From Rhizophagus irregularis (taxonomy: Eukaryota; Glomeromycota; Glomeromycetes; Glomerales; Glomeraceae), in NCBI RefSeq assembly GCF_026210795.1, contig NC_089439.1, forward strand, positions 1,364,001 to 1,428,000: DNA of 64,000 bases, in the 5' to 3' direction. Below are positions 26,053-57,104 of the stretch, piece after piece. Both the position numbers and the translations under genes were made by a program. The notes beneath the pieces were generated by a model. That model worked only from the letters and a program-made list of their open reading frames with translations, ran no database searches and was not told the DNA's origin. Each line of letters starts with the position of its first letter. The first letter of the stretch is position 1.

Positions 26053-26063
26053 GGTTCCTCCTC

Positions 26064-34249: not shown

Positions 34250-34261
34250 TCAATTTCAAAA

Positions 34262-34480: not shown

Positions 34481-34503
34481 TTAATTCACAGTATAGCCTT
34501 TTA

Positions 34504-34520: not shown

Positions 34521-34522
34521 CT

Positions 34523-35053
34523 TGTTAACCGACTCGATACGTTGAATAGATTAACTATGATTTGCAGTCAGGGAGATTAAGTACGTTTAACTATGACTGA
34601 AATCCAATCAAACAAGACACGCTTAAAATAGGGAGTTCGTTTATAGTGTAAAAGGTTATACTTTATTATAGAACTTTATAATTACAAGAATAAGAACTAA
34701 TAGGAACTAAGGTTAACTAATTCGAACTGAAGGAACTTAACTTATAACGAAGGAAAATACCAACGTTATTTATATAAAAGTTACTACATATAAAGATATA
34801 ATAAATATAATAGATATAATAAATATAAGAAATATAACTAATATAATAAATATAACTAATAAATTAAATATAATAAATAAAATAATTATATCGATTATAT
34901 TAAATATAATTAATATAATAAATATAATAGAAATAATAGGCTAAGTAGGCTGCGGCTAGGTCGGCTTGGCACAGTTGGGCACAGTAGATCCTAATTTTCC
35001 ACATGATCTTCTGGCGCAGTAAGTTGTAACTCTACACGTGACTAGGGGTAACA
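34523..35053 (-). repeat. 5' LTR of the Ty3 element
   Basis: 531 bp. No difference from the 3' LTR was seen on side-by-side reading. Confidence 0.95.
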
Positions 35054-37034: not shown

Positions 37035-37626
37035 AGATTATAAGAATATTACTGCGTACGCAGCCACCAACTGCGTTGAAGATCCCATACCCATAAGGGG
37101 GGCTGAAAAGATGCCTACCAAATGTGAGGTGGTAGAAGAAATTCATTGGTAAACTGATATGGCAGGTCATAGATGGTCTGAAATCCTTCAGAGGTGATAT
37201 GTTTAGAGTTTTTCTTGGTACCTGATCGGCCCAGTTAGGGATAAAATAGGTGTCGGCAGGGCACCAACCACAAAAGTTGTATGGCAGGTGGTCAACCAAT
37301 TTAAATCATACACTGGATGGGGTGGGTATATTGCTGATGAGTTGCTAAGGTGGTCAATGGGGAGTGTGTTCTGACACCCCCCTGATATGCTGCGGTTGGC
37401 CCCAAATACCAAAAAATACCTACTGAAGTAGGTGGTCCGGGGTGGGTTTAGGTGGCCCTAGTTAGGTCATCCTAAATCTCTATTAGAAGTAAGGATCTGG
37501 TCTAGTAGCTTCAGCCTTGGCTGAGGCTTTAGCAGATGACAAGCTCTATGTTAAGTTGTGTTGTTTCTTTGATCAACCATGCTTTTTTGATGGTTTTGCC
37601 AACTTCACATAAAATAAATAAATAAA
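37035..37626 (+). mobile_element. 5'-truncated non-LTR retrotransposon (LINE) 3' end
   Basis: A 592-bp insert, GC-richer than its flanks, ending in (AAAT)n (about 37612-37627). It is flanked by 14-bp direct repeats TGAAAAAGTGACCC (37021-37034) and TGAAAATGTGACCC (37627-37640). A simple-repeat tail plus a target duplication of this length is the mark of target-primed reverse transcription. The body is 3' UTR with possibly the last codons of the RT ORF (VASALAEALADDKLYVKLCC on the plus strand). No catalytic domain is present. Confidence 0.7.
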
Positions 37627-37924
37627 TGAAAATGTGACCCGGCCAGGTGAAGTGAACTGAAAATATTAGTTTGTGTGGCCTTAAAAGCATAAAAAACACA
37701 ACACAAGAAATTGGAAAATTTAGAGAATAATTTTTTTTTTAGGAGTTGGCCTAATTTTTTTTTTCGGGAAGTATCAAAAAAATTCATACAGTACAGTTTA
37801 AGTACAGTTTATAAGTATACCCAAAAAAATCTTTTTAAAAAAAAAGAAAATAAAGGGAAGGGAAATTATTCAAATTTTAATCGAAAAAAGAAGGAAGTAA
37901 GAATTCGTGGTGTTTTAACTGAAC

Positions 37925-38560
37925 TAGGGATTGGAATCGATTCTGTGATAGTCAAATTAATCAAAAATTGATTCTGAATCGATTAATCGAAAATCACATG
38001 AAAAAATCGAATTTGACGCCTAAACAATTTTTTCATTCTAGTCAATCGTTTCCATTGATATTTGGCCTAAATAAAATTTTAATTCTGGCCAGCATTAAAG
38101 CTCGGCCGGAATTAACTTTGTGTAATCTAGAAAAAAAGTTTTTGACTTTATTTTGAGTACAAGGTGGTACGTTTATTATAAATAAATACTATTAGCTATG
38201 TAGTCAAAATTTGTGTAATATTACTGCATAAAGGGCTTTGCCTAAGCGAAACTATTTCTAATGATTAAAAGTGGTCAATTTGACTTAGAAAGTGGTTGAT
38301 TTGGCCCATTAAATGAAAATTCATGATTATTAGCTACTTTAAGGCCAAATTGGCCATTTTCAAGGTTAAATTTACTAGCCAGTGACAATGATGTAAATAT
38401 TAAAAGAATAAAAAAAGTTTGATTCTCCGTAAAAACTATGATCATCCAAATTGTGACATGAAACTGAAAATCAAATTTTAAATCAATCTTGAGATTCGAT
38501 TAATCGTGATTAGTCGATTCTATAATCGATTCTCAAAATTAGAATTGATTCCTATCCCTA
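37925..38560. mobile_element. 636-bp hAT-type non-autonomous element
   Basis: The termini TAGGGATTGGAATCGATTCT and AGAATTGATTCCTATCCCTA are inverted. A perfect 8-bp duplication AACTGAAC flanks them (37917-37924, 38561-38568). Subterminal GATTAATCGA motifs repeat in both orientations, typical of transposase binding regions. The interior has no coding capacity. Confidence 0.8.
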
Positions 38561-38636
38561 AACTGAACTATAACATCAAATTGAATGGTAGTAGTAAAGT
38601 TCAGTTAGAAACACCTTTTTTAGAACAAGCCACAAG

Positions 38637-39101
38637 GTCATCGGGCTGGATGTGGGTCTCGCTACCGCTCCACCCACCTCGGCCTCACGGCCTCGCAGTA
38701 CCTCCTTCCCCCCTACGGGGGATCAGGAATCCCCTATATCTGTCACCATCTGTCAATAACATCTGTCATATAACAATATACTAAAAAAGGATAAAATAAG
38801 GGAAAAGAGAGGAAAATACGATAGAATCAGAGGGGTATGACAGATATGACAGATATGACAGATATTTCAGAAAAAATCGGGAGAGGGTATCCCCAGAAAA
38901 AAGTTTTGATTTTACCCCCCAGATCTGTCATTCTGTCATAGTTCTGTCATATGATCAGGATTCCGTCTAATAATCTGTTGGAAGCAGTGAGATAGCAAAC
39001 CAGATAAGTTAGCAGGTAAGCCCCTAGAAGGTCTATAAAGCCAGTAAGACCAACCCCGTCCCGTCCCCGTCAGAAAAAATAAGTAATTGAACAATGGGTA
39101 T
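38637..39101 (+). repeat. Left terminal inverted repeat of element 1
   Basis: 465 bp, nearly identical to the reverse complement of 52687-53150. It contains a run of ATGACAGAT repeats (about 38836-38865) and further dispersed GACAGAT/ATCTGTC words, possible polymerase or integrase binding sites. Confidence 0.92.
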
Positions 39102-39140
39102 TGAGAATAGAGCATATCCAGATAAGTTTAGAAGACAGTA

Positions 39141-39461
39141 CTAATCCGTCTTCCTCTTTTTTGCCTCCTTAAGGCATTTATCAATACACTGTTTACACGC
39201 ATCATCAGAATCTAAGATTTTCTGTCCAAGTTTTTTGCATTGCCGATTGTAAGCCATCTGCTGTCTCTTAGCAGCGGTTTCTTTCTTTTTCTCCTTAGTC
39301 TTCTTCTTGATCACCCAGTCTATTCCAGTAAAAGTATTTTTATGCATACCACAAATTGTGCAGTCACCATGCAGCCGGTAACGCCCATTTGTAGTCATAT
39401 CTTGTATTTCACTAGCCGTCTCAGTTTCCTTCTTGCACTTTAGGCAGTAAAAACGTGTCAT
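39141..39461 (-). CDS. Small zinc-ribbon protein, DUF5679-like (106 aa)
   Basis: The N-terminus FYCLKCKKETETA...TTNGRYRLHGDCTICGMHK is a two-CxxC zinc ribbon resembling DUF5679, a small domain recalled from large DNA viruses and phages. A lysine-rich linker follows, then a second cysteine group (ACKQCIDKCLKEAKKRK). The ORF is intact. It is the first gene inside the left TIR, divergent from the integrase gene whose ATG lies 45 bp away, so they probably share a promoter. The role is unknown; nucleic-acid binding is likely from the charge. Confidence 0.6.
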   Translation of the reverse strand: MTRFYCLKCKKETETASEIQDMTTNGRYRLHGDCTICGMHKNTFTGIDWVIKKKTKEKKKETAAKRQQMAYNRQCKKLGQKILDSDDACKQCIDKCLKEAKKRKTD

Positions 39462-39505
39462 TTTAAGATTTGAAGTCTAAAACCATTCCTTTAATTTGTC
39501 GTAAT

Positions 39506-40597
39506 ATGTCGCATTTAGAGAATTATTACAAATACTACAATCTCTCCGGAGTACCAGCACGAATTCTAAAAGGTGAGGAGCACTACAACCTATACAAAAA
39601 GCCCCTAAAGGAGAAGTCAACAGAACGTCCAAAGGTAATTGTATGGAAACCAAATGCAACACATCAGGCAGATCTTGCAGAGATGCCAGTTGACCCCAAA
39701 GGATTCCACTATTTTCTCGTAGTGGTAGAAGTTGCAGGAAAGAGAGTTGATGCAGAACCCCTAAAGGATAAGACTGCAAATAGAGTTCTAAACGGGTTTG
39801 TCAAAATCTACAGAAGAAATCGTATCAAGCCTCCAACACACCGACTGGAAACAGACTCCGGATCAGAATTCACTAACGACCAGGTACGTGATTTTTTCCT
39901 GAACAGCCTAGGGGTAATGATGAGGTTCGGAGAGCCAGGAAGGCATAAACAGCAATCTTATGCTGAAAGAGCTATCCAAGCCATCCAAGAATCCCTTCTT
40001 AAATGAATAGTAGCACAGGAGTTGAAAACTGGGGTGACATCCGTGGAATGGTCAGAAGATTTCCATAATATAGTGAATAAAGTAAATGAACTCTGGCAGA
40101 GAAATCCCCCAGACATTCCGACAGGGTCACCCAAAGTGTCAAAAAAGACGGATCTCCTCTCTGAAGGAGCACGTGTCAGAGTCAAGTTAGATGAACCTAT
40201 TTCTGTACTTGGTAACAAACTTCACGGAAAATTCCGTACAGGAGACATAAGATGGAACCCAAACATTCGTGTAATCAAAACAATGATACTCTCACCTGAA
40301 CAGCCTCCTACATATCTTCTTAACGGACCACATGGTCGATTAGGTGTATCCAGATGTGCATATACCCGAAAGGAATTGCAAGTAGTTCCTATTAATGAAA
40401 AGCCTCCACCTGACTCTGTGATAAGAGGACAACCTGAAAGATTTGTTCCTGAGCAGATACTTCGGCATCGCATTAGAAAAGGTCAAGACCAGTATTTGGT
40501 TAAGTGGGAGCGCTATCCAGACACTGAGGCTACTTGGGAACCTGCTGATTGGTTGAAGGAGGATGTCCCTGACTTAATTCGCAAATTTTGGGAATAA
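39506..40597 (+). CDS. Polinton-type DDE integrase with C-terminal chromodomain, one in-frame TGA
   Basis: It would insert the element into chromosomes. The catalytic triad is visible: D in NATHQADLAEM, D in LETDSGSEFTN, E in QQSYAERAIQ. The C-terminus (about residues 310-363) is a chromodomain (EQILRHRIRKGQDQYLVKWE, YPDTEATWEPADWL), which targets modified histones. The ATG at 39506 is chosen because the frame upstream has no ATG. A TGA at 40004-40006 splits the frame, but the reading continues unshifted (IVAQELKTG), so a single transition would explain it. No N-terminal HHCC zinc finger was seen. The gene converges on the protease end of the Gag cassette with 25 bp between the stops. Confidence 0.85.
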
Positions 40598-40622
40598 AAA
40601 AAAATAGAAGAATTAAAGGGTC

Positions 40623-41047
40623 TTATTTTTTATCCCCTCGATTAGCATCAGGAACTATCGGGATAAAAACATTCTTCCCATCACAGGTAAAGGCTATATG
40701 TTCACGTGATTCATGAACATTATAATTGTAACGTTTCAGACACGTTCGGCTTAACCCAATCTCCCTATGTTTGTATCCATCTAAAACTGCAAGATCCTTA
40801 GTAATAGCATAATCAGGGGTAAGTTTGATTGACACTCCCTTTACCATGCCGAATGTCCTACCTGTTCCTGAAGCACCAGATATGTTGTATGTAATACTCT
40901 TGTCGATATGCAACCCTAATTCCTCAGCAGCTTCTCTCTGAATAAACGACGTATTAGCACAAGTGTCTGCTAAACACTGAATTGCTATTCCATTAACCTC
41001 CCCATCCAGTGCTAAAAGATCTTTAGATTCTCTAAACGAGCTATGTC
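40623..41047 (-). CDS. Retropepsin-like aspartic protease of element 1
   Basis: The open frame (codons from about 41044; the first ATG at 40913 is internal) reads LALDGEVNGIAIQCLADTCA, then NTSFIQREAAEELGL, the flap-like ISGASGTGRTF and a C-terminal half with FIPIVPD. The pattern 'hydrophobic-x-D-T-x-A-x-x-S/T-F/L-I' is the retropepsin active site as in Ddi1 or Ty3 proteases. The usual Gly after DT is Cys here (DTCA), which may inactivate it. It lies one reading frame (-1) from the preceding linker ORF (41290-41012) and so may be made as a Gag-Pro fusion by frameshift. Confidence 0.6.
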
Positions 41048-41355
41048 AATATCCATAGGATCGTCTACCCTGATATCCTCTTCTTGTTCCTCCTCAACTA
41101 GGTCCTCCGGAATCTCTGTGACTTTTCTAGCAGACAATAACTCCTCCTGAAGAATCTCACGGAGTAATTTCCTAAAGTCTGCAGACCTTAACAGGCTTAA
41201 TAAGTCATTCTTAGTAACAGCTTTTGCAGGTGTAGACTTACTACCAGTAACTTTCACAGGAATCTTAACAGGGGTTGCTTTGCCTTTCAAGGGCGTACTA
41301 GAAGAGCTAACTGCTGTCTTATTTGGGGACGACTTAAGAAGTTTTGAGATACTCG
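41012..41355 (-). CDS. Gag-protease linker region of element 1
   Basis: A Lys/Ser/Pro-rich, then acidic, segment (KGKATPVKIPVKVTGSKSTP; SLLRSADFRKLLREILQEEL; EEEQEEDIRVDDPMDIDIA). It is joined upstream to the Gag frame through a run of nine A (about 41363-41371), where the Gag frame stops at TAG, and downstream to the protease by a second -1 shift. It has no ATG appropriate for independent translation near its true start, so it is a fragment of the polyprotein. Confidence 0.5.
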
Positions 41356-41358
41356 AAC

Positions 41359-42825
41359 CTACTTTTTTTTTGACCCAACACGGACCATATAGACATCACC
41401 ATCTTTTTCTCTCAATTCTACCTTTTCACCAAAACTCGCAGTATCAATATCCATAGCATCATCATTAAGATCGAGGTTTCTCATTGCTCGGGCCAAATCC
41501 AGATCATCACGTCTATCTTTAGCCTTCTGAAGTTGTTTTGTAAGTATTTTAGACGTCCCACGTTTATATCCCATAATAAAATCAATAGCATTTTGATGAT
41601 CATCCAAAGTCCATTCAGGAGCATCAGGGTCATCACCAACATCATGATCTACATAACCATCATCCCAATCAGGATCCTGAGGATCCTGAACAATACGTCT
41701 CTGTGGATTTGGTCGAACAGGTTTAATCTGCTGTCTATAGACTGGTGGATTACGAACTGGCCGAACCTGTAATTGTTTAAATTGCACCTGAAAATTCTTG
41801 GTAAGTTCCTCAGCTTGAGTCTTAAGTAACTCTTGTAATTGTTCTTGAGTAACCCCAGATGACTTTGATGTTAGTACGACAGGTTCCTGTTTTCCTAACG
41901 GAGGTTGAGTTACATCACTGTAATCTGCTTGAAGTCATCGATTTCTATCTTGTAACCCCAAGCACATTTCAGCCCTTCTCCGTTCTAAATTTCTCAGATG
42001 TTTAACCAAGTCATCAGGATTAAGATTACTAAACCTTTCTGCTTCAAAAATATTATCAGCCGAAAGACCTCTAAAGAACTGGTCGATGATAAGATCATCA
42101 GTTAGTTTTAGTAATTTTCCAGCTCTCTTTACAGTTCTATAAAATGCATCGACTGGCTCATTTTCCTGATAAAGACTGTTAAAACGGATACGTTTCTTTT
42201 CATCTAAAATAGTTGGAAATTGTGTTCTAAGCCAATAAAGCGCCTGGTTAGGTTTAATACCAGGAAAAACTATAGAACGATTATTATTAGCAGCAACACC
42301 AGCATCTGCAGTAGCTGGAGCAACTCTATCTGTCGGACGAGCACCAGCTCTTCCCCAAGCTTTATCTCCACCTATTAAATCATGGGTAGGAATAAATGCT
42401 GCTCTAATAGTTACTAATGCATTAGCTGCATCTGTAGCATAAACATGTGCTTCAGACCCATTTACATAGGTACCTGCATTTGGTCCTCCTGCACCTTCTG
42501 GTATTACTAATGCTACAAAAGCAGCTAAATTAGCTCCACCTCTTGAAGTGATACCAGAAAGTTCCCAATTTTTTCCTGTAATTTCTCGATCAAACCATTC
42601 AGCTGCTTCACCAGCCATGCAGCTTCTAAGTATACCCATAGCTCTTTTCCAAGACTCTGGTGGCCCTCCAGCAGCGTATGGGTTAAGATTAATAGTATCA
42701 AGATAACCCATATAAAGCCTAACAAATGTATCAATATCATCAGTAGCTTTACCCTCAAAAATCGGCAATCCTATCGCAGTGGTAGCTATATCGTCTCTAG
42801 TGGATTGTTTAATATAGGTGGAGGA
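41359..42825 (-). CDS. Gag-like structural protein of element 1 (capsid-like domain), one in-frame TGA
   Basis: The frame contains LPIFEGKATDDIDTFVRLYM, then SWKRAMGILRSCMAGEAAEW, FDREITGKNWEL and, about 200 residues on, NSLYQENEPVDAFYRTVKRA, DQFFRGLSADN and LRNLERRR. This is the order of the retrotransposon Gag capsid: 'L.G.A..W' helix, then 'E.V..F...' and 'F..GL'. The same motifs occur in element 2's Gag and in the Ty3 Gag of this window. A TGA at 41937-41935 interrupts the frame, which goes on unshifted (LQADYSDVTQPPLGKQEPVV) to an Asp-rich tail and ends at 41359 in an A-run. No CCHC knuckle was found here. Confidence 0.7.
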
Positions 42826-43568
42826 GGGTTCAATTGTCTAATTCGAAACCATTGTACCTGAATTCTAAGAGCAGCTATCTGTTGGAAAAGTCTATTTCTA
42901 AGTCTCCCTAATGTCTGAATCCCAAAACGCACCCTATTATTAGCATGTGCTAGCTGTGCATTAACCTGTCCAAGTTGCGCATTAACCAATACAAGTTGTC
43001 CTCCAGTCCGAGTAGCCCTCAGCCGCCAATGATTTAAAAGGATATTACCACGATTTACAGCATTTTGAGCCTCATTACGATCCCTTACTGCTTGAGTATA
43101 ATGTGCTTGTAATACATTACGTTCATGTCGTGCCTGATTACGTTCACCTATAGCCCGTCGACGAAGCTCTACCATAGTATCATAATCTCTTTGCAGGTTA
43201 TGGTTTTCTTTTATGAAATTATCATTGGCAGCACGTATAATAACTAATTGACGTTCTAAATTAGTAAACGTTTCATCAAATGCATTTATCTTACCTTGTG
43301 CAAAAACTAACAAATCTTTTGTAATACCAAGTTCTTCATGTTTTGCTTTACAGCGATACATTAATATATTAATAATATGTTTGATTTGATTATTTGCCTT
43401 CTGTATCTCTGAATCAACAGTTAAACGACCCCTGGTAATCAATAAATTTGCATGAGCCTTTAGTATTCTAACTAATTCATCATCGTCTTTTTCATTGACC
43501 AAGTGTGCAGGAGGCGGTCCAGTAGGTTCTGAAGGAGTATAAACTGGAATTGGTGTTGATGTCGACAT
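42786..43568 (-). CDS. Coiled-coil N-terminal region of the Gag-like cassette (260-aa ORF)
   Basis: From ATG 43568 the protein starts with a Pro-rich segment (MSTSTPIPVYTPSEPTGPPP). It is then almost entirely a charged coiled coil (about residues 25-245) and ends with NPPPPILNNPLE. Element 2 has a matching coiled coil ending in NNPPVIQQP directly fused to its Gag domain, so this ORF and the following one (from about 42825, -1 frame) represent one polyprotein split by a shift near 42790. It is divergent from the ATPase gene, with 31 bp between the start codons. Confidence 0.65.
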   Translation of the reverse strand: MSTSTPIPVYTPSEPTGPPPAHLVNEKDDDELVRILKAHANLLITRGRLTVDSEIQKANNQIKHIINILMYRCKAKHEELGITKDLLVFAQGKINAFDETFTNLERQLVIIRAANDNFIKENHNLQRDYDTMVELRRRAIGERNQARHERNVLQAHYTQAVRDRNEAQNAVNRGNILLNHWRLRATRTGGQLVLVNAQLGQVNAQLAHANNRVRFGIQTLGRLRNRLFQQIAALRIQVQWFRIRQLNPPPPILNNPLETI

Positions 43569-43599
43569 AGTATTTAAACTAAGTTAGAATAAAATTCAA

Positions 43600-44457
43600 A
43601 TGGATCTTTATGTATACAATTTGGACGAGTACACGACCGACTCAAGACAAGGCAATGAGTTTGCTCCATCATGGCCCTTTCGATTAGCCGTAGTAGGTAG
43701 CTCAGACTCAGGTAAGACAACTATGATCATTAATTTGTTAATGGGTGACAAGAAAGCAAAGGAGGATGGTAATCGGTATGTACTATGTGATGCAGTACTT
43801 TTAGTTGGCAGATATCTTGACGAGCCGAAGTGGGCAGTTGTACATGAATTTTTCGAAGAGGAGAAAATCCCATTCACTGCAGTAACCCATAGTGAGATTC
43901 CAGAGATTGACTCCTTCGACCCTACTCAAGCTACTGTGGTAATCTTCGAGGATCTGATGGATGCACCTAAAAAAATCCAGGATCTCATCACTGGTTACTT
44001 TACACATGGACGACACAAAAATATTTCATGTATTTATGTAGCCCAAAGATTCTTTGCCATTCCTAAGGCTATTCGAGAAAACGTTAACTACATCTCACTG
44101 CATGGAGGTCATGGGAGCCTTACAGATACCAAGAGAATCATCCGCCTATATACAGAAGAATCAGAGTCATTAGCACCAGTAATTGATGATCTTACTCTGC
44201 AACGTGAATTTGTAGTGTTTGATCTTAGACGGTCCAAAAGTGATCCACTGTCCATTCGAGTAAGATGGGATACTAGTCTCAGTTCTATCACAGAGCAATC
44301 TCAGTTCAATCCTAGTTCGATCTCAGTTCAATCTCAGTTTGATCCAAGTTTGAACCCAGTTCGATCTCAGTCTGAACCCAGTTCAATCACAGTTCGATCC
44401 AAGTTTAGTCCCTATGGTCAGAAAGCTGTATTTGAAGCAAAAAAGGTGGACACTTGA
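43600..44457 (+). CDS. A32-like DNA packaging ATPase (FtsK/HerA superfamily, 285 aa)
   Basis: This is the genome-packaging ATPase typical of Polintons and large DNA viruses. Walker A is GSSDSGKTT (residues 33-41), Walker B is TVVIFEDL (112-119) with acidic residues, and a motif III-like SCIYVAQRF (143-151) follows. The length suits the family. The C-terminal 50 residues hold a serine/glutamine repeat (SQFNPSS / SQFDPSL / SQSEPSS / SKFSP) of unknown role. The ORF is intact, and its stop overlaps the start of the next gene by 4 bp (ATGA at 44454-44457), suggesting coupled expression. A packaging motor implies that the element once formed particles. Confidence 0.85.
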   Translation: MDLYVYNLDEYTTDSRQGNEFAPSWPFRLAVVGSSDSGKTTMIINLLMGDKKAKEDGNRYVLCDAVLLVGRYLDEPKWAVVHEFFEEEKIPFTAVTHSEIPEIDSFDPTQATVVIFEDLMDAPKKIQDLITGYFTHGRHKNISCIYVAQRFFAIPKAIRENVNYISLHGGHGSLTDTKRIIRLYTEESESLAPVIDDLTLQREFVVFDLRRSKSDPLSIRVRWDTSLSSITEQSQFNPSSISVQSQFDPSLNPVRSQSEPSSITVRSKFSPYGQKAVFEAKKVDT

Positions 44458-44822
44458 TTGAATTTGCTCGGGTATTTCCATCCCCTAAAGAACGTCAACA
44501 TTTACTTGTACCTGGTGTCTTAGCCAAGAATGCAGATACCTGGATTAAATATGTCTTTCGGGAAGCTTATGGACTCTCTGGTAAGACCCTAGGAGCTGAC
44601 TTTCAGGATTTCTTAGCAAAAGTACAGGGTAGGACTGCAAAGACTGAAACTCTGAAAACTGAGAATGTGAAGGAGTTATTCTCCCGATATGAAGCCCTGA
44701 AGTCTAGTCGCCCTCTGGATAATAAACAAATAATAGAAGGTATTGAAGTCCTTCTACAGATCTTTTCTAAGAGCCACATGGACCGTCGAGCATTACAAGT
44801 AGGGATTAATAGTATCTTGTAA
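44454..44822 (+). CDS. Hypothetical element protein (122 aa)
   Basis: An intact ORF overlapping the ATPase stop by 4 bp. It is alpha-helical and charged (EFARVFPSPKERQHLLVPGV, AKNADTWIKYVFREAYGLSG). Its end overlaps the 3' end of the opposite RPB10-like gene by 17 bp. No domain is recognised; the position behind the packaging ATPase suggests a morphogenesis role, as inference only. Confidence 0.55.
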   Translation: MIEFARVFPSPKERQHLLVPGVLAKNADTWIKYVFREAYGLSGKTLGADFQDFLAKVQGRTAKTETLKTENVKELFSRYEALKSSRPLDNKQIIEGIEVLLQIFSKSHMDRRALQVGINSIL

Positions 44823-45366
44823 GAATATCAAGTAATTCGTCTGCAGAAGCTTTAAGAATCATAGCACTTTTTTTACGGCCTTCAAAGTCAATCCTTAACA
44901 TCTTAGCCTTCAACCCTATTGCTCCTAAAGCACGAGAAGCAAAGTTCTTAGTCATTGGATTACTTATATGATTTACATAGTTCTCATAGAATGTAGTGAA
45001 AGGCTCGTCAATACCATCTGGATATGTATCCCTTAGAAATTGATATAAAGCAATTTCTCCACTGTCATAACCTATGGCTATAAGCTGTTCGAGAAGCCAC
45101 TTCCTAATATCTTCATATGGCTCTCCATCCATAATATTCATATCCAGTTTTTGTGTAAACAATTGTGTAAAGTCCACATTACTTCCCCGACGAATGATCT
45201 GAACTAACTTATCCCTAGCAAGTCCCAAGGCTTGTAAAGGTTCACTCTCGTCGCCAATCTTCTTTATAATCTGTCTATACAACACGCTGGATAATCCTCT
45301 ATATGCTGTTTTTGGAGTGATTACTCCACAGTTTTGGCATTGGTTTATTACGATTGATGTTGACAT
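44806..45366 (-). CDS. RPB10-like zinc protein (186 aa)
   Basis: The N-terminal 60 residues follow the pattern of RNA polymerase subunit RPB10/RpoN: CQNCG near the start, a Tyr/Leu helix, and ALGLARDKLVQIIRRG, which parallels ALGL-x-R-x-C-C-R-R of RPB10. The second zinc pair (CC) is replaced, so zinc binding may be lost. The C-terminal 120 residues (PYEDIRKWLLEQLIAIGYDS; NYVNHISNPMTKNFASRALG) are helical and unknown. RPB10 homologues occur in large DNA viruses, where they belong to the viral RNA polymerase. None of the large subunits is in this element. The ORF is intact. Confidence 0.5.
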   Translation of the reverse strand: MSTSIVINQCQNCGVITPKTAYRGLSSVLYRQIIKKIGDESEPLQALGLARDKLVQIIRRGSNVDFTQLFTQKLDMNIMDGEPYEDIRKWLLEQLIAIGYDSGEIALYQFLRDTYPDGIDEPFTTFYENYVNHISNPMTKNFASRALGAIGLKAKMLRIDFEGRKKSAMILKASADELLDILTRYY

Positions 45367-45411
45367 GGCTATCTTTCTTTATGTAAAAAAGAATTATTCA
45401 AAATTAAGTAA

Positions 45412-46065
45412 CTATTCGGAGCAGTCCTTGCACAACTTGTCCGTTAAGTCACTTGGGCTTACAGGCATGAGACATTCTCTACACAACTCAATATTAAGCT
45501 CTGCAAGTCTCGGGGTATGGTCCTCCAAAGTTCATGGACGATCGGAAGGACCGGAGGAAGGTGTCCCGTTAGTCGTATCTTGCTGTAAGATAAAATCATC
45601 ATATTCATCTTGGTCAGCCTGAATAGCGGCCCTGATTTGTTGTATATCATTGAAAGTTAACCGCTGCCCATCAAGATTTTCCTCATTATAGCGTGTTTCA
45701 TTGATGATTTCCTCTATAAGCGCCTCTTCTTCATAATGGACAAGGTAGTAATCCTCAACTACCTCATAGTCACTCTCAATCAGTCTATGATATGTTCTAG
45801 TACCACGTCGAACATAACGTCCTGTATCTGTATTTAAATATACAGGTTGCTCTTCAGGTGGAGGTGCAGTTTGTCTACGGACAAGCCTTCCACCAATATA
45901 ATCATGGGATTCCATAACTATTCGATTAAAGGTATCTCCACCGATAATAATTGGACGTCCAGTTATAGGGTTAGCTATATAAGGGTAAGACATGTCTTTT
46001 TTTCTGTATGTGTCTACATACCTAATAGTTTTCTTCAATTTATAATAACCAAGTGACATGGTCAT
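45412..46065 (-). CDS. Adaptor-like protein with NPxTGR motif and C-terminal zinc motif, one in-frame TGA
   Basis: The protein contains NPITGRPIIIGGDTFNRIV at about residues 32-50 and a second, weaker copy (TDTGRYVRRGTRTYHRLIE). 'NPxTGRxIxxGGxTYxxL' is the signature of the 2-cysteine adaptor domain of large DNA viruses, here without the flanking cysteines. A TGA at 45534-45532 splits the frame. The unshifted continuation encodes RLAELNIELCRECLMPV and KLCKDCSE, a two-CxxC zinc motif that resembles the C-terminus (TLCDECLMPTRSHECDC) of a protein in element 2. The function is unknown, probably a scaffold. Confidence 0.55.
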
Positions 46066-46156
46066 CAGTCCTTATCAAAAATGCAAGGATACCTGATGAT
46101 AAGGTTACATGGTCATCAATCCTTGTCGAAAAAATGCAAGGATACCTGATAAATAA
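46056..46156. repeat. Direct repeat, two units of about 51 bp
   Basis: ACATGGTCATCARTCCTT...ATGCAAGGATACCTGAT occurs twice in tandem at the 5' end of the adaptor gene. The rest of the intergenic region (to 46490) shows no gene. Confidence 0.7.
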
Positions 46157-46490
46157 GTTACTGGGTTATTGGCCTAGAATGCATTCATGGAAAAACTATG
46201 GATTATATTACAGAAAATGTGAACGGAGTTCATGTCACGTGATACCCTGAACAAATGTGTAGAGTGTCACGTGATTTCATGCGGTACGTAGATCATTTCC
46301 TTTTTGGGCGATACCCGTTCCACAAAAAATCGATTTTGGTAAAAATGCGTTTGGAATCTTGTGTAACATAAATTTCCTTTTTCGGTAATTCGGGATTACG
46401 CGGTAATGCCGGCCGGATCTAAAAAATATGACTCTGCAGGGTAATTCCTACGAAAGTCAAGTACAAAATGCTTACTCCTGTTGAGTCCAT

Positions 46491-46877
46491 TCATACCACT
46501 CCCCAAGGATCGCCTCCCCATCTATGTTCACTTAATGCATGCTCTATGGTTTCCCTCTCTTGGGGGTCCACGACCATCCCATTCCTAAGCATTTTCTCCA
46601 TAATATAAAGCTGATCCTCGGTGAGGCGGTCTATCCATCTTTTATAGAAGTCGTTTACATCTTCAAATGTTATCCAGTCAACATTCCCTTTTTCGAATGG
46701 CTTTCCAAGAGCTCGGACATACCCGATCGTAGTGGCATAATTTTTCCACCTCTTATATGCCTCTTGACGAACTTCCTGCCACCACACTCTATCTACCTTA
46801 CTCACTGCAATAAGGTCAGTATCCGGGATCTTTGCGACAATGCGTTTGACTATTTCTACTGGTAATCGGTCCAACAT
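46491..46877 (-). CDS. F-box protein (128 aa)
   Basis: The N-terminus LDRLPVEIVKRIVAKIPDTD, followed by LIAVSKVDRVW, is an F-box, the motif that docks on SKP1 in SCF ubiquitin ligases. The remainder (KRWKNYATTIGYVRALGKPF; ERETIEHALSEHRWGG) has no recognised substrate domain. The ORF is intact and starts at the first ATG. A mobile element with an F-box gene could steer host ubiquitination; that is inference. Confidence 0.7.
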   Translation of the reverse strand: MLDRLPVEIVKRIVAKIPDTDLIAVSKVDRVWWQEVRQEAYKRWKNYATTIGYVRALGKPFEKGNVDWITFEDVNDFYKRWIDRLTEDQLYIMEKMLRNGMVVDPQERETIEHALSEHRWGGDPWGVV

Positions 46878-46981
46878 GATGTTATATTACTTATACTATA
46901 GCTATCTTCAATTACTGTATGCCTATTACACATGGATAAATAGACTAAATTCGTACAGGATCGTAGGACCACAGGAGCCGC

Positions 46982-47452
46982 TTATGCAAGAAGTTCTGTT
47001 AAGGTTTTCTCAGCCTCATTTTTAGTAATAGCTCGCTTTGGGGGACCGGTTGATGAGTCCTTAGTCACATTATAATACAATTCGAAGAGGACCTCAAGCT
47101 TATCTAGGAGAGCTTGTTTATTGTTGTATGATTCACGGATTTTTGCTATCTTAGCAGTATATGCCGCATTATCTGGGAAGAGTTTTCTGGCCACGAACTT
47201 CACATATGATACAGGAGAATTTGCCATCTGGATTCGCTTGATATACTTCACATGATCCTGGACAAGGTAGCTGGTTTTGCTAAACCCAGATACTAATGCG
47301 ACTACTATAGTGTCTTTCAATGCACGGATAATCTTGAGGACAGTTTCATCAGAGACAATGGTGAACTGATTGTGTGATGCATCATAAATAACTTTATCAC
47401 TAATGCTGTTAGTGCTGTTAATAATGCTTGCTAATTCGGTATATGTTGACAT
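46982..47452 (-). CDS. Hypothetical element protein (156 aa)
   Basis: An intact helical ORF (MSTYTELASIINSTNSISDK; VLKIIRALKDTIVVALVSGF; NKQALLDKLEVLFELYYNVT). One hydrophobic patch around residue 50 is too short to be a clear membrane segment. It lies between the F-box and polymerase genes on the same strand. No family is recognised. Confidence 0.55.
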   Translation of the reverse strand: MSTYTELASIINSTNSISDKVIYDASHNQFTIVSDETVLKIIRALKDTIVVALVSGFSKTSYLVQDHVKYIKRIQMANSPVSYVKFVARKLFPDNAAYTAKIAKIRESYNNKQALLDKLEVLFELYYNVTKDSSTGPPKRAITKNEAEKTLTELLA

Positions 47453-47565
47453 GATTCCTTATACTTTTTTGTACTTTGTAATAAATAGGAATCTTCAAAT
47501 TGACTTTACATTCAAGCAAGAAAAAATATATATACCTACTGTAAATCCAACCGCATTCTTGGCAA

Positions 47566-49446
47566 TCATGTCCAGATAACCTTGTTTGCATTTTTCACAT
47601 GGCAGTATCCTGCAGTTTCAAACTTGAGAGCTTTCAATGCTTTGGATGCATTTTCTGGACAAGTGATAAGTGTAGGACTACTCGGCTGTTCCTCTAGAAT
47701 AAATCCATCTGTATGGATGCGTCGTACTTTATCCTTATATGGTTCTAATAACTCTGAAGTCGTCTTCCGTCCATGTGCTAATAAGAATGGAGCGATCCTA
47801 GGATACTCACCCTTGAAGGGACTACCTGGGTTTGTAAACTGAAATCGCCACTGGTCAGATCCTACTGGTACGATGGAGTCAAGTGTGTGGCCTTCTGGAA
47901 ACTTGAATGGATCTGTTTGATCTGTGGTGAGTGTCTTGTAATTGCGTTTCCTCTGGCAGAGTGCTCCCCATAGTGTATTGAGAACTCTTTTTGCAACACG
48001 ACCGGCCACGCCACCCTGGTTCTTTATATTGAAGAGAAAGTAGACATACTCACCAAATATTACAGTCCCAGGAATTCTTGCTTCTCTGTCATATATCAAG
48101 GCATTTGGCTTTCCATCCTGGATTAACTGTATATCGAGTCCAAGTTTCTTTGCTCGTTGTAAGTCAATGAATGTATAGACTCCCCTCTTATTCTGTCAGA
48201 AGAGAATGTCATTACCACTTACCTTGCCCTTGGGCGCTCCCTAGGAGCTAGCACGAAATAATCCATACAAGGCATAACCTCTATGGTCTACAAAGTCTTT
48301 GAGTATTTGAAACTTACCTTGTCGGATTGGAAAGTTTGCATTTGATTGCTGAATACTTGGATACAAACTTGTCACGTCGTATTGCCTTCCATAGCCCTTC
48401 CATTCATTGTCTGCCCAGATAAGACCTCCCATCATTGCATCACTTATCCACTCTGCTTCGACTGGGTCAAGAGGATCATTGGCTGGAACCCCTACACTAA
48501 ACCGTTCAAAAAGCCAGAGTGCAGTTCTCTTGTACGACCAGTTGTGGTAAGATAAGTCGATTCCTAGACCGAACTTCTTTGTAGCCTGTAGGAAGGAATC
48601 CCGCTCTTCATGGATCCTCTGGTATGTTTCCTCAAGTGTTTCATATATTCCAGTTTTACAATTCTTCTCGATAGGGATGAAGGAGTAACTATCAGAGTTC
48701 TTACCTTTCTGAAACTGTCCAACTGTAAGAGACTTAACTGTCTTACCATTGTATATTGTTACTACATTATTAACCCCATCTTCACGATAAACAAAGGGAG
48801 ACTTTTGTTTTCTATCTAATTTGCTAGGGTGGAGTCTTCCGGGATTCAGTGCAAGAGAGTAGTGGCCTTCAGACAGGATAAGTGTTGCACGTCTGTCAGA
48901 TTTGCTCTTGGAAATTCGAGTGGAATCCCCTACAATATTAAGTGCAAGGCTTCCTGCAAGTTGTTCAACCTTATCCATATATGAGACTGGAACTGGAGCA
49001 TCACGATTGAGACCTAATGCCTTTTTGATATACTCGGGCTTTTCGATTGACTTTGGCATTTTAGAGAATGTGCCGTAGATATATTTCAGGCATTCATACA
49101 GGCAATCATTTAGCTCCCCGTTGCAACCCCCTGCAACCGGTGGGGCATCTCTTACATAAATTATGAATCGTTCAAAATAATCAGGGTCTGCGTCATCCGG
49201 TAGTTGTGCTTCGTCGTAGTGGTCCAAGAGTGAGAAGAGGCTGGCTGGTTGGTTTCCTGATGTCCATCCACCGGGTTTCCAGTTTTCATAGGGGAGCAGA
49301 ATCTGAAATTTATGTGTCGGATACCGGGATTGGAGTCGCTGTCCAAGTCTTGCTATTGCTCCTCTGGAAAATCTTGCGCCTGAATACTGTAATTCTTTGA
49401 TATCCGGTCTTGTAGGTAAAGCACGGACAATCTCTGAATAAACCAT
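47566..49446 (-). CDS. B-family (protein-primed type) DNA polymerase with OTU-like N-terminal region, two in-frame stops
   Basis: This is the replicative polymerase of element 1. Motif A is YDVTSLYPSIQQ, motif B is KRVLNTLWGALCQRKRN and motif C is IHTDGFI; the order and spacing fit PolB, and 'SLYPS' with 'TDG' resembles linear-plasmid and virus polymerases. The frame is interrupted by TAG at 48243-48241 and TGA at 48198-48196 but is never shifted; coding sequence continues between and after them (RGVYTFIDLQRAKKLGLDI). The N-terminal 250 residues include NGELNDCLYECLK and EGHYSLAL, resembling the Cys and His boxes of OTU proteases. No complete 3'-5' exonuclease motif set was recognised. The sequence is clearly different from the polymerase of element 2. 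Confidence 0.75.
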
Positions 49447-49530
49447 TTGATGTATTTATGAATTGTGTTCAGTTGTAATATAGGTTTTTTTATACAAAAA
49501 ATATAAGATAACTAAGAAGTGCTTATCTTA

Positions 49531-52094
49531 TTAAAAGGAGTCAATCTTGCTGCATACACGATCAAGATCCTCTTCATCCCAGTCGTCGACAATTCCATTG
49601 GCGGCTTCCCATTCACGTTCCATATCAGTTTTTGGACGTTCCTCTGGGATTTCTCGTGCTTTACCCTTATTCATCTTCATAGTTTCATAACCAGAGGTGG
49701 TAGGGATAATCTCGGCATCACGATCCTCCTTGTATACTCTTATTAGATCTGCAAGTTCTTTACGGCTAGGTGTTTTAGGTAAGTTCCCATTATATTCGAT
49801 CCAGTCCTTGAAGCGGTCTACTACCTCCCTAAGGTAATACTGGTACTCGTTCTCAATACGTGTTGTGGGACATTCCTCTACTTCAAACGCGAGTATTTCC
49901 CAGTCATAGTCGTCTGACACGTCTTGGTACTTAGCCCATAAATCCTTACCTGTATTGTAGAGATCATTGAAGACCTGGTCCTTTGAATTCTTGACCCATG
50001 GCTTACGATCCTATCGGTGCCTTTTATGCCAAGCCCAGTGTGCTCGAGTACCTTCCTTTGGTTCAGAGTTTCAGTCAACTTCTAGTTCTGTGTCGGGTTC
50101 TGGGATAGGTTGCTCTTTGAGAGTCAGTTCTACTACGGGTTCTGTAGAAGATTTGGAATCTGTGAGAGATTCGGATTTTGCAGAAGATTCTGCAGGAGAC
50201 TCGGATTGTTGCTCAGGAACTTGGTCTGCAGTTGTAGGATCTGAGTCAGATAGCAAGTCATCATCAGCTTCAAATGCAGGTTCCTCAGCAGGCGGCTCAT
50301 TTTCTTGATCAGGTTCCTCATCAGATAGATAACAATCTGAGAAACTGTCTATAATTTCATCAGTATCTGACTCTATGGAAGCTGGAGATTCCTCAGGAAT
50401 AGGATCCTCTTTGATGACAGGTGCAGGTTTTACCTTCAAGCAATAAGGCTTAGGTGGTACTGGTGGAGGAGCCTTTTTGGCAACTAGTTGCTCTTCAGTA
50501 GGTTTTTCTTCAACAGGTTTCTCAACAACTAACTCCACTTTCTCTTGATCTACTTGCGATTTACTAGCTGGATTATATATATTTGCCAAGAACTTCTCCA
50601 AGGCATTTGGATCAGATGTGGGCTTCTCAGGAGTTTCTATATCTATTCCTTCTATATTGATTTCATCTGTTTCATGGATCCATTTTTTGCCGAGGTATTT
50701 CTTGTAAAGATCCTCCCTGGATATGCTATATACTTGGGTTAACTTTTTATTTATATAAGTCCGATTACTATTTATACTCAACTCATTTGATAGGATTCTA
50801 GAAGCGTTTATCTTTGATAATGGTAAGATGCAATGAGTTTCACAGTATGAAGTATATACCCTATAAAATTCTTGAACAGGTAGGTCGGTTATATGATTTT
50901 TTACTATGAGGTAAGTGTCCTTTATGAATTGAAATAGGGGTGGAAGAGTCGATATGATGTGATCCTGCTTAGATGTTGTCATAGGTGGTGGATTCCCATT
51001 GAAGTCTGGGTAAGCGTCTGCAATGGCTCTCAAGTAAGCATAGAATGCCTCACTGGCGCCTGGGTATTTCATAGCGTCACTAAGTTTCTTAAAGTAGTTA
51101 AGGTCTCCCTTGCGGGATGGTGACACATCCAAGAACACTGTGCGCCTATCATCATTCTCCACTCTGAGAGCATTTTCATTAGTGAGTACAATGGTGGATA
51201 TAAAGTTTTTGTAATGTGTTGGCGTCTTGTATTTTTCATGGATTTCCATTATATTGCCTGTTACCTTATCCTTCAACGATCAATACAGATTATTCCACTG
51301 GCTTTTTTCTGTAGGCATTTCCTCGAGGAGGAGAAGAACCTTACCCTGTAATTGCCCATTGAAACTTCCAAGAATCGTTTAAGGATCGCTGGTCTTATAA
51401 ACAAGTTGAGTACCTAAAACACTACGTTGAATGAAATCTGTTATAATACTCTTACCCCAACCCTGTCCAGATTTCAGGTAGAGAATCGAATACATTTTCC
51501 TTCCAGCTGCCACACCGGCCAACCACTTTATGATATACTCAGTAAGATTCCAATCGCCTGAACACCAGATATCCTGAATGTGGGAGAAGATAAATTTAAC
51601 CGCGAGGTGGGTTGTAGATTCAAAAGTGGATATCGGACGCAGGATATGGAGGAATCCTGGAAAGATATTGAGATAAAGTTGGCCACCTAGTTTAAAGATA
51701 CGGGATTTTTGAGGGTCACAGGTAGCTACACATACAGTACTATATTCGATCATAAACCATTTGTTGATATTAAATTCAACCTTTTGTGAAGGACCCTGTT
51801 CAGATTGTGTGTAAAAGACTTTGGTAATTGGACGGATAAGTTTATTAATATTTTTATCAGGGATGTGCTCGAGGTTTTTGATTTCTGATCGCCACATGAA
51901 GACTCCATGTGGGTTGGAGCAGGGATAAAGTAACTGCAAAGATAACCTTTAGCTTGATTGAGATCCCTCATATTCTTTGCAGCGTTAATGAGCCGTTTAA
52001 GCTCATCAATACTAAAAGCCTTCTTCTGTTCACCGAACTTGGGGATAACTTGACCTTGAATGCTAGTTTGGGCAGTCATTTTTTGTTCTATCAA
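49531..52094 (-). CDS. SF3-type (D5/VirE-like) helicase, long frame broken by four stops and one shift
   Basis: The helicase acts with the polymerase in replication. Walker A is SGQGWGKSIITDF, Walker B is KVLLLLEEMP, and the downstream segment YKNFISTIVLTNENALRVEN...RRTVFLDVSPS matches SF3 motif C and the arginine-finger region. From 51939 to 49531 one frame is kept, interrupted by TAA (51381-51379), TGA (51282-51280), TGA (50073-50071) and TAG (50013-50011). The start lies in another frame (52094, MIEQKMTAQTSIQ), shifted near 51930. The C-terminal 300 residues are a Pro/Glu/Ser-rich acidic tail and a helical end (YDWEILAFEVEECPTTRIEN). Removing the nonsense codons would give about 850 residues, the size of D5-like primase-helicases; no primase motif is seen. 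Confidence 0.7.
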
Positions 52095-52351
52095 ATCGAG
52101 TACTAATTTATAGTTACCTAATCTTCAATTGCCGAATATTTTTCCAAAGATCTGCACTCCTACCAATTTACCCTCCTGTAGTCCTATGGTTCTGCAATTC
52201 TGCGGTCCTCCGGTTATATCTGGTTATCTTCTAGGGGTAAAAAAAAAACTATAAACCACGAACCTTTACGACTGCTCTAAATTTTCCCTTCCCCTTTTTC
52301 AAACTACATATATCTGAAATCCAAACCGCTCAAGAGCTCCTTTTACTATAG

Positions 52352-52657
52352 TTAGCTTTTTCTAGTGTCCGTTAACTCTTTACAAGCCTTTTGATATGCC
52401 TTCCATTCAAGTTTACGGAGGATACCCTCCTCCTCCAATTATTGGCCAAGAGCATCATTTGCTTTTTCCTTCTTTTCTACTGCCCTGTCGTATGCCTCCT
52501 CGGCTTTTTTATGCCGCTTCCAGAGTACTCGTTCAGCTTCAACTCTCCAGATTGGGCTGACTTCTAGAAGATGTGGCCCGAAATTGCTACTTGAAATGTG
52601 TTCCAGGATATGGCCTACAAGTTCGGGGATTACTGATACTGCGTGCGGGGTATACAT
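52352..52657 (-). CDS. Second small F-box protein, one in-frame TAA
   Basis: VIPELVGHILEHISSSNFGP, then HLLEVSPIWRVEAERVLWKR, is an F-box pattern. A TAA at 52441-52439 cuts the frame, which continues unshifted (LEEEGILRKLEWKAYQKACK) to a TAA at 52354-52352. It is the last gene before the right TIR, and the ATG lies just 30 bp from the TIR edge. Confidence 0.5.
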
Positions 52658-52686
52658 GTTATCTGTCCTTATAGGTTACTTATGGT

Positions 52687-53150
52687 ATACCCATTGTTCA
52701 ATTACTTATTTTTTCTGATGGGAGCGGGACGGGGTTGGTCTTACTGGCTTTATAGACCTTCTAGGGGCTTACCTGCTAACTTATCTGGTTTGCTATCTTA
52801 CTGCTTCCAACAGATTATTAGACGGAATCCTGATCATATGACAGAACTATGACAGAATGACAGATCTGGGGGTAAAATCAAAACTTTTTTCTGGGGATAC
52901 CCTCTCCCGATTTTTTCTGAAATATCTGTCATATCTGTCATATCTGTCATACCCCTCTGATTCTATCGTATTTTCCTCTCTTTTCCCTTATTTTATCCTT
53001 TTTTAGTATATTGTTATATGACAGATGTTATTGACAGATGGTGACAGATATAGGGGATTCCTGATCTCCCGTAGGGGGGAAGGAGGTACTGCGAGGCCGT
53101 GAGGCCGAGGTGGGTGGAGCAGTAGCGAGACCCACATCCAGCCCGATGAC
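52687..53150 (-). repeat. Right terminal inverted repeat of element 1
   Basis: 464 bp, the reverse complement of 38637-39101 with a few mismatches. It is followed directly by the target duplication ACAAG (53151-53155). Confidence 0.92.
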
Positions 53151-53155
53151 ACAAG

Positions 53156-54153
53156 CAATATCACTAATGCTATTATGTGGTGTAGCTGATGTAATTTGTG
53201 GATTTGCCCAGGGCGTAGTAATTGGTAGAGTATATCCTCTTTGAGCATTCCATCGGTGTAGGTTTACTTACATAAAAAGGAGGTCTCCTGGGAGTAGGAT
53301 TAATAATAACAGGATCTTTATATGAAATTGGGATCTTTCTGTATCAGCATCCGTTAAACTGCCACTGGAACAAGATGTAACAGGACTTGGAGGATGAACA
53401 GGTTTCTCATTTTCTTTACGATTACATTTTAATTGACAAGACTGTACATGTCTTGGTAAATGTCCATGTTGATTGAAGCTCTTCGTACATTTATTAATTG
53501 GACAATTAAAAGGTTTTTGCCATGAAAAATTAGGATGTGAAATTGTTGATTTGATAAGAATATTTCAGTAGTGTTCCGAAAGGGTCAGGTCAAACTAGCC
53601 CATAACCTGCATGAACTCGACCTGACCTGTTAAGTCGGGTTATACCTTTACTTTGACCCAGTGACCCGAATCTTTTTAAACTAAAAATTTCAATTTTTTT
53701 ATATTAAATACAACTTGATGGGTTCTGAGTCAGACCACAATCGGGACTTTTACACTCAGGTCGAGTTCAAATACACCTCAAAACCTGACCCGACTCTACC
53801 CCTTCAAAACACTAAATATATGTTGTAATTGCACAGGACGATGGGGATAATGAATTATTTTCCCTTTTAAACGCGTTATCATGAGTTCTTATATGTCTTG
53901 TCAATTTGTCAGACCAGGAAAATCTTTTGGAACATTTGTTTCAAGTACATTTATAGGGTTTTTCTTCAGTGTGAGTTCAGATATGTCATTTTAAATGTTT
54001 CAGTCTGTTGAATTCACGAGTACAAACTTGACATTTATGAGTTTTAGGATTTCGGGATTTTGTTCCTTGAGACCTATTATTTTGATCACTTACTTTTGAC
54101 ATGATTCTTTCATCTGTTGGACCATTTATTAAATTAGCGAGGTCATTAGACAT
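53156..54153 (-). pseudogene. C2H2 zinc-finger transcription factor gene split by a MITE and by element 1
   Basis: From ATG 54153 (MSNDLANLINGPTDE) the protein carries HKCQVCTREFNRLKHLK and EEKPYKC...CSKRFSWSDKLTRHIRTH, a pair of C2H2 fingers of the Mig1/CreA/Nrg1 kind. After a MITE (53569-53814) a further finger follows (KPFNCPINKCTKSFNQHGHL), then a Pro/Ser-rich tail (EKPVHPPSPVTSCSSGS, ITTPWANPQITSATPHN). Three TGA codons lie in the first fingers at positions where Arg or Trp is usual. Element 1 inserted in the last codons of the ORF. On the far side of the element (38636 downward, minus strand) the frame ends after a few residues at a TAA. Confidence 0.65.
53569..53814. mobile_element. 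246-bp MITE, TAGTGTTYYGAARGGGT termini
   Basis: The ends TAGTGTTCCGAAAGGGTCAG and CTACCCCTTCAAAACACTA are inverted. Subterminal CCTGACC/GGTCAGG motifs repeat. It is inserted in the coding region of the C2H2 gene. The target duplication is not clear. Confidence 0.6.
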
Positions 54154-54407
54154 TATGTAAAAAGAAGATTTTAGGAAAGTAACGGGTTGGAAAGAATTCA
54201 ATGTAAAAAAAAGAGGGTGAATAATTACTCAGAGTTAAGATGTTTTTTTAAAATTTGGAAGATAATATATAAAAAAAATTTTTTTTTTATATTTCATACT
54301 GTAACTTAAATGTGTTATCTTATCTTGAAAACAATTAGTTTATATATTATATATTATGCCTTATATATTAATATATGTGTGTATTGTTATTGTAGATAAA
54401 AGCTTCA

Positions 54408-54562
54408 CCCTATAAAAAAAGTTGATCCGTTTTTTATATCCATCTTTTTTTCATAAAAGGCTCATATTTCCAGAATTAATAATCTTATATCATGGAATTT
54501 ATCAAATTATTTGCATTTTCCATGAATAGATCCATGAAAGGCAGATAAAATTTTTTATAGGG
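54408..54562. mobile_element. 155-bp MITE, same family as 23028-23201
   Basis: The ends are CCCTATAAAAAAAGTTGATC and TTTTTTATAGGG, flanked by TCA on both sides (54405-54407, 54563-54565). It is inverted relative to the other copy. Confidence 0.7.
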
Positions 54563-54593
54563 TCATTGAGTAGTATGAAAACCCCAATTCTGG

Positions 54594-54795
54594 CTCACCT
54601 ACTTATCTCATAATCTAAACCGTTTATTAATATTTTCACCTACTTATATGCTACATATTTTATAACCTAAATCACCTTTTTTATATTTTTACCTACTTAT
54701 CTCATAATCTAAACCGTTTATTAATATTTTCACCTATTTATATCCTACTTATTTCATAATCTAAATCATTTATTAATATTTTCACCTACTTACCC
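54594..54795. repeat. Tandem repeats, about 50-bp unit, at the left end of element 2
   Basis: Five imperfect units of CACCTACTTATMTCATAATC plus an AAACCGTTTATTAATATTTT-type half. They mark the transition from host sequence to element 2 and may belong to its terminal repeat. The right end of element 2 lies outside the window, so this cannot be verified here. Confidence 0.6.
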
Positions 54796-54973
54796 CCAAC
54801 CGAACAAGAAATAGGATTTCAAAGCCAACAGAGCCAAAAAAGGTAAGGAAATATTAACCCATCCAGGAAACCAGCCATGGAGTCAATAGAGCGGAATAGC
54901 AAGGCAAGCAATTTCCCTTATACCGAGAAAAAATGTAATTGAATAAAAGATTCATATATAAAAGGTTTACAAG

Positions 54974-55660: not shown

Positions 55661-55680
55661 TTTTCAGTGAAACCATTTTT

Positions 55681-56472: not shown

Positions 56473-56576
56473 GTCTGGTTTTTTCTATTGATAGAAAAGA
56501 AATGTTCAAATTATTTTATCCTAAGAAAAAATCTAATTAAATAAAACTTCTCTATCAATATCTCATATGAGATACC

Positions 56577-57089: not shown

Positions 57090-57104
57090 TATTTGTAAAG
57101 GCTA

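Follow-up and report, generated by a model that had tools for sequence, protein, structure and literature searches.

Polintons, virophages, adenoviruses and giant viruses are united as one virus realm by a double jelly-roll capsid protein, which in known cases is about 350–600 amino acids (aa) long. The target site duplication (TSD) is 6 bp for Polintons and 5 bp for Ty3 retrotransposons. Jelly-roll capsid genes, intact or split, were reported in more than 80% of 72 Polintons, and nine Polintons without them also lacked protease and ATPase (Krupovic 2014, PMC4028283, in the sections consulted). In the available part of PMC7805220, Glomus intraradices (Rhizophagus irregularis) is one of the species named as hosts of early Polintons in which no major capsid protein was detectable; the survey of that paper likewise recovered none in the Polintons of this fungus, and the idea is raised there that such capsid-less elements turned into transposons. 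The word "gag" occurs zero times in that paper, and neither Gag nor retropepsin is mentioned in the part consulted. Mavericks are listed among the recently expanded elements of R. irregularis in an extract of PMC8647823.

We analysed a window of 64,000 nt of R. irregularis (assembly GCF_026210795.1, contig NC_089439.1, positions 1,364,001 to 1,428,000), in which positions 38637–53150 are a Polinton/mavirus-like DNA element with terminal inverted repeats (TIRs), TSD, PolB, SF3 helicase, chromodomain integrase and A32-type ATPase. A coiled-coil/Gag/retropepsin cassette is part of its gene content. We consider it likely that the element belongs to a lineage in arbuscular mycorrhizal fungi that carries a Ty3-type Gag and a retropepsin, kept under selection, in place of the jelly-roll capsid and Ulp1 protease. 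The features concerned are the following, with frames given as open reading frames (ORFs) or parts of them:

38632–38636, no strand: left TSD, ACAAG
38637–39101, plus: left TIR, 465 bp
39467–40597, plus: DDE integrase with C-terminal chromodomain, with an in-frame stop here (Pfam rve 1.2e-9 and Chromo 1.1e-16, both over cut-off)
40626–41045, minus: retropepsin-type aspartic protease domain, active site DTC
41015–41395, minus: frame joining the slip site to the protease (−1 frame)
41359–41371, minus: A9 run, G and the stop TAG closing Gag; putative −1 slip site
41362–41934, minus: Gag C-terminal part, no CCHC knuckle seen
41938–42837, minus: Gag capsid (CA) part, with a profile match to Ty3 Gag and a fold match of the relative P0013
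42786–43568, minus: coiled-coil protein, overlapping the Gag start
43600–44457, plus: A32/FtsK-like ATPase, divergent from the Gag cassette (Pox_A32 2.3e-10, over cut-off)
44436–44822, plus: C-terminal part of the ATPase ORF (a single 407-aa frame in the relative L039)
47566–48199, minus: PolB C-terminal piece, frame interrupted (DNA_pol_B_2 1.5e-4, under cut-off)
48241–49446, minus: PolB N-terminal piece (tblastn match to the corresponding frame of the relative L040)
49531–52094, minus: SF3 (D5/DUF5906) helicase, interrupted (821-aa open frame in L040)
52687–53150, minus: right TIR, 464 bp
53151–53155, no strand: right TSD, ACAAG

Retropepsin, Gag and coiled coil thus lie on the minus strand and the ATPase on the plus strand; beyond it, several small proteins, PolB and the SF3 helicase are again on the minus strand. 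The ends are as an earlier reading of this DNA, made from the letters alone (the sequence-only reading), had described them. The two TIRs align with six mismatches and one gap, and among 11 TIR pairs (the window and ten others) the 5-bp TSD was exact in eight; one had a TSD 4/5 identical with a shifted end, and two had none. Searches covered the host genome of 146.7 Mb in 32 contigs, and since the best candidates alone were scored, all genome match counts given here are lower bounds. At least 40 TIR matches were found, the shorter TIR pairs spanning about 14–16 kb. The element had been called complete, which holds for its ends but not for its genes: the frames of integrase, Gag, PolB and SF3 are interrupted, as is the C-terminal part of the ATPase. 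The main frames are open in the relative L039/L040 (integrase 363 aa, Gag 498, coiled coil 234, ATPase 407, PolB 617, SF3 821). Close to the expected right end of that copy, at L040:5413–9933, lies a Ty3 element (RT-like frame of 395 aa, Gag of 834 aa).

The identities proposed for integrase and ATPase were borne out by Pfam matches over cut-off. Those of PolB and SF3, under cut-off in the window (DUF5906 4e-4), are supported through the relative L040, where DUF5906 reaches 1.2e-17, over cut-off, with PDB primase chains at 7.4e-6, and where DNA_pol_B_2 on the open PolB falls just short (7.5e-6, 25.5 bits versus a cut-off of 25.8). An 11-nt tandem repeat lies within the part coding for the ATPase C-terminus (44277–44419).

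PolB, a retroviral-type integrase, an A32/FtsK-type ATPase and TIRs are shared with Polintons/Mavericks, and the Polintons listed earlier for G. intraradices (PMC7805220, in part) are very probably identical to the present elements. In contrast to Polintons, the elements described here have Gag and retropepsin, an SF3 helicase and a 5-bp TSD, and neither a double jelly-roll capsid nor a Ulp1 protease was found in them. The Polinton label therefore needs a nuance, because a short PolB and a separate SF3 helicase gene, together with the integrase, recall the arrangement of mavirus-like virophages (PMC11071308, in the part available). Unlike these virophages, the present elements are multicopy in a fungal genome, again with no jelly-roll capsid or Ulp1 protease found.

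The stretch 42825–41359 of the sequence-only reading consists of two pieces of one Gag frame, 41938–42837 and 41362–41934, and the ORF at 43568–42786 is the coiled coil. A profile built from 22 Gag sequences matched Ty3-type Gag at 95% (E 2.4e-8), and a reversed control gave 0.2%. Structure prediction and fold search pointed the same way: in the predicted model of the relative P0013, the CA part matched the capsids of the retroviruses SIV, HIV and MLV as well as PEG10 and Arc, and the protease matched DDI1 and retroviral proteases. Pfam families for the coiled coil remained under cut-off in the relative with open frames. The protease, read earlier as a DT-type enzyme, is a retropepsin (Asp_protease_2 2.5e-9, gag-asp_proteas 1.2e-7, both over cut-off), but its coordinates are corrected to 41045–40626 and its motif is DTC, neither DTG nor DSG. 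Of 31 loci, 27 have DTC and one has DIC; in the other three the motif was not found. We regard the domain as a putative enzyme.

The likeness to Ty3/gypsy elements (Metaviridae, chromodomain type) covers Gag CA, by profile and fold, the retropepsin, the chromodomain integrase, the 5-bp TSD, and Gag and protease (PR) in different frames. The differences are that no reverse transcriptase (RT)/RNase H or long terminal repeat (LTR) was found here, that copying is probably by a DNA polymerase, and that the CA part carries about 100 extra residues between its halves. Similarly, Arc and PEG10 have reused the Gag CA fold, but these are host genes, whereas the present Gag belongs to a mobile DNA element that brings its own polymerase.

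Gag and protease are of Ty3-type families, as a single nested insertion of a Ty3 retroelement into this one Polinton would also predict. The distribution of the cassette makes this explanation practically negligible. Gag gave at least 143 genome matches, which merge into 128 loci: groups A and B, with identities of 40% and above, account for 111 of them, and group C, at 32–35%, for 17. The ATPase gave at least 108 matches, merged into 101 loci, and among these listed loci Gag was at most 4 kb away in 94, head to head in every one of the 94; the other seven had no Gag within 4 kb. Seen from the group A/B Gag loci, the ATPase was present at 94 of 111 and not found at 17. Nor were LTR-like direct repeats detected in window 37500–54500, or any RT/RNase H match among the element ORFs tested. 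The cassette is thus not a separate insertion, in line with the sequence-only reading, and for groups A and B, which are divergent and have the layout in common, the nested Ty3 insertion is refuted by the 94-locus arrangement. Further copies with the same cassette, for which that reading proposed a survey, are these 94 loci, with intact frames in L039/L040. To the left of the element, window 25522–34956 holds a probably young LTR retrotransposon, with a pair of identical direct repeats of 300 nt spaced 9,001 bp apart and a Ty3-type Gag match between them (33182–33478, minus).

In group C, the ATPase query from groups A and B matched near none of the 17 Gag loci. A Pox_A32 match was located about 3 kb away at four of them (C1, C6, C21 and C23, listings compared by eye), and tblastn detected an ATPase at a further locus, L043 on C30. 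The Gag–ATPase pairing is therefore fixed in groups A and B, and in group C some of the loci show it. Two group C loci, L042 and L043, have coiled coil, capsid part, CCHC-like stretch and protease beside an integrase; their Pfam values are under cut-off for the knuckle (0.0097 and 0.017) and the protease (0.0025 and 0.019), and over it for the integrases. The polymerase of L041/L042 was recognised by eye with Pfam silent, and a Pfam PolB occurs within 12 kb of three group C loci. A more distant element, group D (L088, L086 and L087, on contig C17), has a Pfam-supported PolB and C2H2 fingers; its integrase-like frame is accompanied by a coiled-coil ORF, a retropepsin over cut-off (3e-7) and, seen by eye, a CCHC-like stretch. 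Similar cassettes thus appear, with weaker support, in more distant elements of the genome.

A second element of group C type lies in window 54000–64000, with Gag pieces at 58769–59547 (minus), an integrase at 60798–61586 (plus), PolB at 62171–63427 (minus) and flanking ORFs in common with L042. It may extend past the window end, and no inverted repeat pair was found within 53151–64000. In protein databases, Gag homologs came from R. irregularis, R. clarus, R. diaphanus, Glomus cerebriforme, a record labelled Dentiscutata and metagenomes, the closest being R. irregularis proteins 98 and 100% identical to the queries.

The absence of a double jelly-roll capsid and of an adenovirus-type cysteine protease, noted in the sequence-only reading, was upheld by the inspection of the remaining proteins. 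These are, in the window:

39141–39461, minus: small zinc-ribbon protein (DUF5679, Pfam 3.6e-17)
44806–45366, minus: conserved 186-aa protein, model helical with a winged-helix-like C-terminal part
45532–46065, minus: 2-cysteine-adaptor-like protein (Pfam 2C_adapt 7.8e-4, under cut-off)
46491–46877, minus: F-box-like small protein (Pfam F-box 0.02, under cut-off)
46982–47452, minus: conserved 156-aa protein

An extra ORF of 171 aa adjoins the zinc ribbon in the group B copy (L039:710–1225), and an ORF remnant at 52442–52675 (minus) looks, by eye, similar to a protein encoded in the L041 element.

Listed ORFs occupy 12,033 of the 13,585 inner bases of the element, and the largest gap between them is 425 bp. 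Neither in the window element nor in L039 does an unassigned ORF exceed 200 aa, other than the coiled coil (234–265 aa), and ORFs of this size cannot hold a double jelly-roll protein. A single jelly roll of minor-capsid type gave no Pfam match, and the 186-aa protein, the sole unassigned protein modelled, is helical; in either the 156-aa or the 177-aa protein, a small single jelly roll resembling that of a penton is possible. Among the ORFs tested, Pfam found no Ulp1/adenovirus-type cysteine protease, the retropepsin being there instead.

Gag and PR could also be accessory genes, for instance an inhibitor of co-resident Ty3, with the capsid provided by a jelly-roll helper or absent altogether. 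Ty1 Gag fragments, which act as inhibitors, are a model for such a role, and the genome is rich in Ty3 Gag genes (at least 150 matches, one in the same window). Capsid-less Polintons have been reported (PMC4028283) and a transposon life suggested for them (PMC7805220), as far as the parts consulted of both papers go. A jelly-roll helper is possible among the PolB loci: of the 63 PolB matches listed, 35 had no listed Gag within 15 kb, and other capsid genes could be present there. Two of these 35 were inspected; one (C11:1426171, in the same window) has Gag pieces absent from the genome-search listing, and the other is the group D element on C17. Two NCLDV-type (nucleocytoplasmic large DNA virus) capsid families had no genome match, a weak argument against a helper because the controls of that search were also silent. 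However, Gag travels here with a protease and a packaging-type ATPase, whereas the nine capsid-less Polintons of PMC4028283 (in the sections consulted) had lost the ATPase too, and we find an accessory role improbable.

Away from the listed Gag loci, the genome has about two dozen Pox_A32 matches. Some of them may be explained by an endogenous giant virus, which occupies a 1.5-Mb region of R. irregularis cited in the accessible part of PMC12455990 and makes a virophage-like partnership conceivable.

Selection was estimated from the ratio of nonsynonymous to synonymous divergence (dN/dS) between group A and group B. Group A was represented by L011 in the case of coiled coil and Gag and otherwise by L045, group B by L039. 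The ratio was 0.055 for the integrase, 0.06 for the ATPase, 0.10 for the 186-aa protein, 0.117 for the protease, 0.17 for the 177-aa protein, 0.39 for Gag and 0.60 for the coiled coil. Inside group A, in sets that take in decaying copies and two duplicated loci, the corresponding polymorphism ratio (pN/pS) was 0.52 for the coiled coil (n=29), 0.41 for the capsid part (n=30) and 0.59 for the Gag C-terminal part (n=31). Gene content, the Gag–ATPase pairing of groups A and B, constraint and the −1 placement of the protease relative to Gag at an A9 run are established at the level of sequence. Synonymous divergence between window 41362–42837 and L039 was 0.57–0.82 in the capsid part versus 0.15–0.34 in the C-terminal part; therefore Gag is mosaic when the two groups are compared, probably through exchange between lineages.

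The junction of Gag and protease has a conserved layout. The 3' end of Gag reads TCA AAA AAA AAG TAG, and over 31 loci the run was A9 in 24 (the group B copy L039 among them), A8 in three, A7 in two, A10 in one and A6 in one. A9 and stop are common to groups A and B although their Gags are 55% identical. In nine group A loci and L039, the Gag frame is open to its stop (492 or 514 codons), and in the same ten loci the −1 frame is open through the protease (246 or 243 codons). Both A7 loci have Gag and protease in one continuous frame. Four of six metagenome Gag proteins end in KKK (P0019, P0021, P0064 and P0073, but not P0106 and P0111). This layout looks like one for −1 slippage, ribosomal or transcriptional.

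Several observations weigh against the proposal that a selected Gag and retropepsin replace the usual capsid and protease. The window copy itself is decayed. The group A Gag profile alone reached only 11.7% against Ty3 Gag; Pfam calls Gag over cut-off in no copy (Retrotrans_gag 0.0082, under cut-off, in the window) and gives no match at all for group B. The P0013 model is of low quality (pLDDT 60, pTM 0.34), and the 50 Foldseek rows listed for it are all proteases. The active site DTC deviates from D(T/S)G, and no CCHC knuckle was seen in the Gag of groups A and B. An ATPase was near only five of the 17 group C Gag loci, and the putative capsid part of group D is without profile support. The dN/dS figures are based on three copies, and no frameshift-stimulating RNA structure was found downstream of the slip site (z +0.69 and +2.08).

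In the mechanism that we propose, slippage at A9, by ribosomes or RNA polymerase, would yield much Gag and some Gag-PR. Gag would build a shell or nucleoprotein core, which the protease would mature; PolB and the SF3 helicase would copy the linear DNA, the ATPase would move it, and the chromodomain integrase would insert it with a 5-bp duplication. The sequence-only reading had a captured capsid module paired with a packaging motor: the capture is supported, and the particle and the packing of DNA by the ATPase are predicted. The Gag module may be real and selected and yet form only an intracellular core for transposition, comparable to Ty3 particles, or serve transport, the A32 ATPase packing no DNA into it. 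We see this as a serious possibility, if not the one we would assume. No envelope-like gene was recognised in the element, copies are found at many chromosomal sites, and neither Gag nor ATPase had IMG/VR relatives in single-protein scans, which may not include records from this genome or from close ones. Against it speak the strong constraint on the ATPase and its fixed divergent pairing with Gag.

The wider form of our proposal is a radiation, in arbuscular mycorrhizal fungi, of PolB-replicated DNA elements or viruses, in which an A32-type motor would pack linear double-stranded DNA into a slippage-expressed, retropepsin-matured Gag shell. This would be a capsid swap between realms, and we put it forward tentatively, as something that may nearly as well be true as not. 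No Polinton with Gag or retropepsin is named in the titles and abstract openings of the open-licence PMC papers that our searches listed; subscription papers and supplements were outside this search, and so the novelty of a Gag-bearing Polinton is provisional.

In contrast to the capsid-less Polintons, the ATPase is retained here, and Gag-PR is found at the expected place of the structural module. To the view of such elements as plain transposons (PMC7805220, in the part available), a multicopy, selected Gag-PR lineage adds another reading, in which the structural module was swapped instead of lost. Gag may thus fill the place of the capsid gene that the Polintons of this fungus seemed to lack, and whether an A32-type motor works with a Gag shell becomes a testable question.

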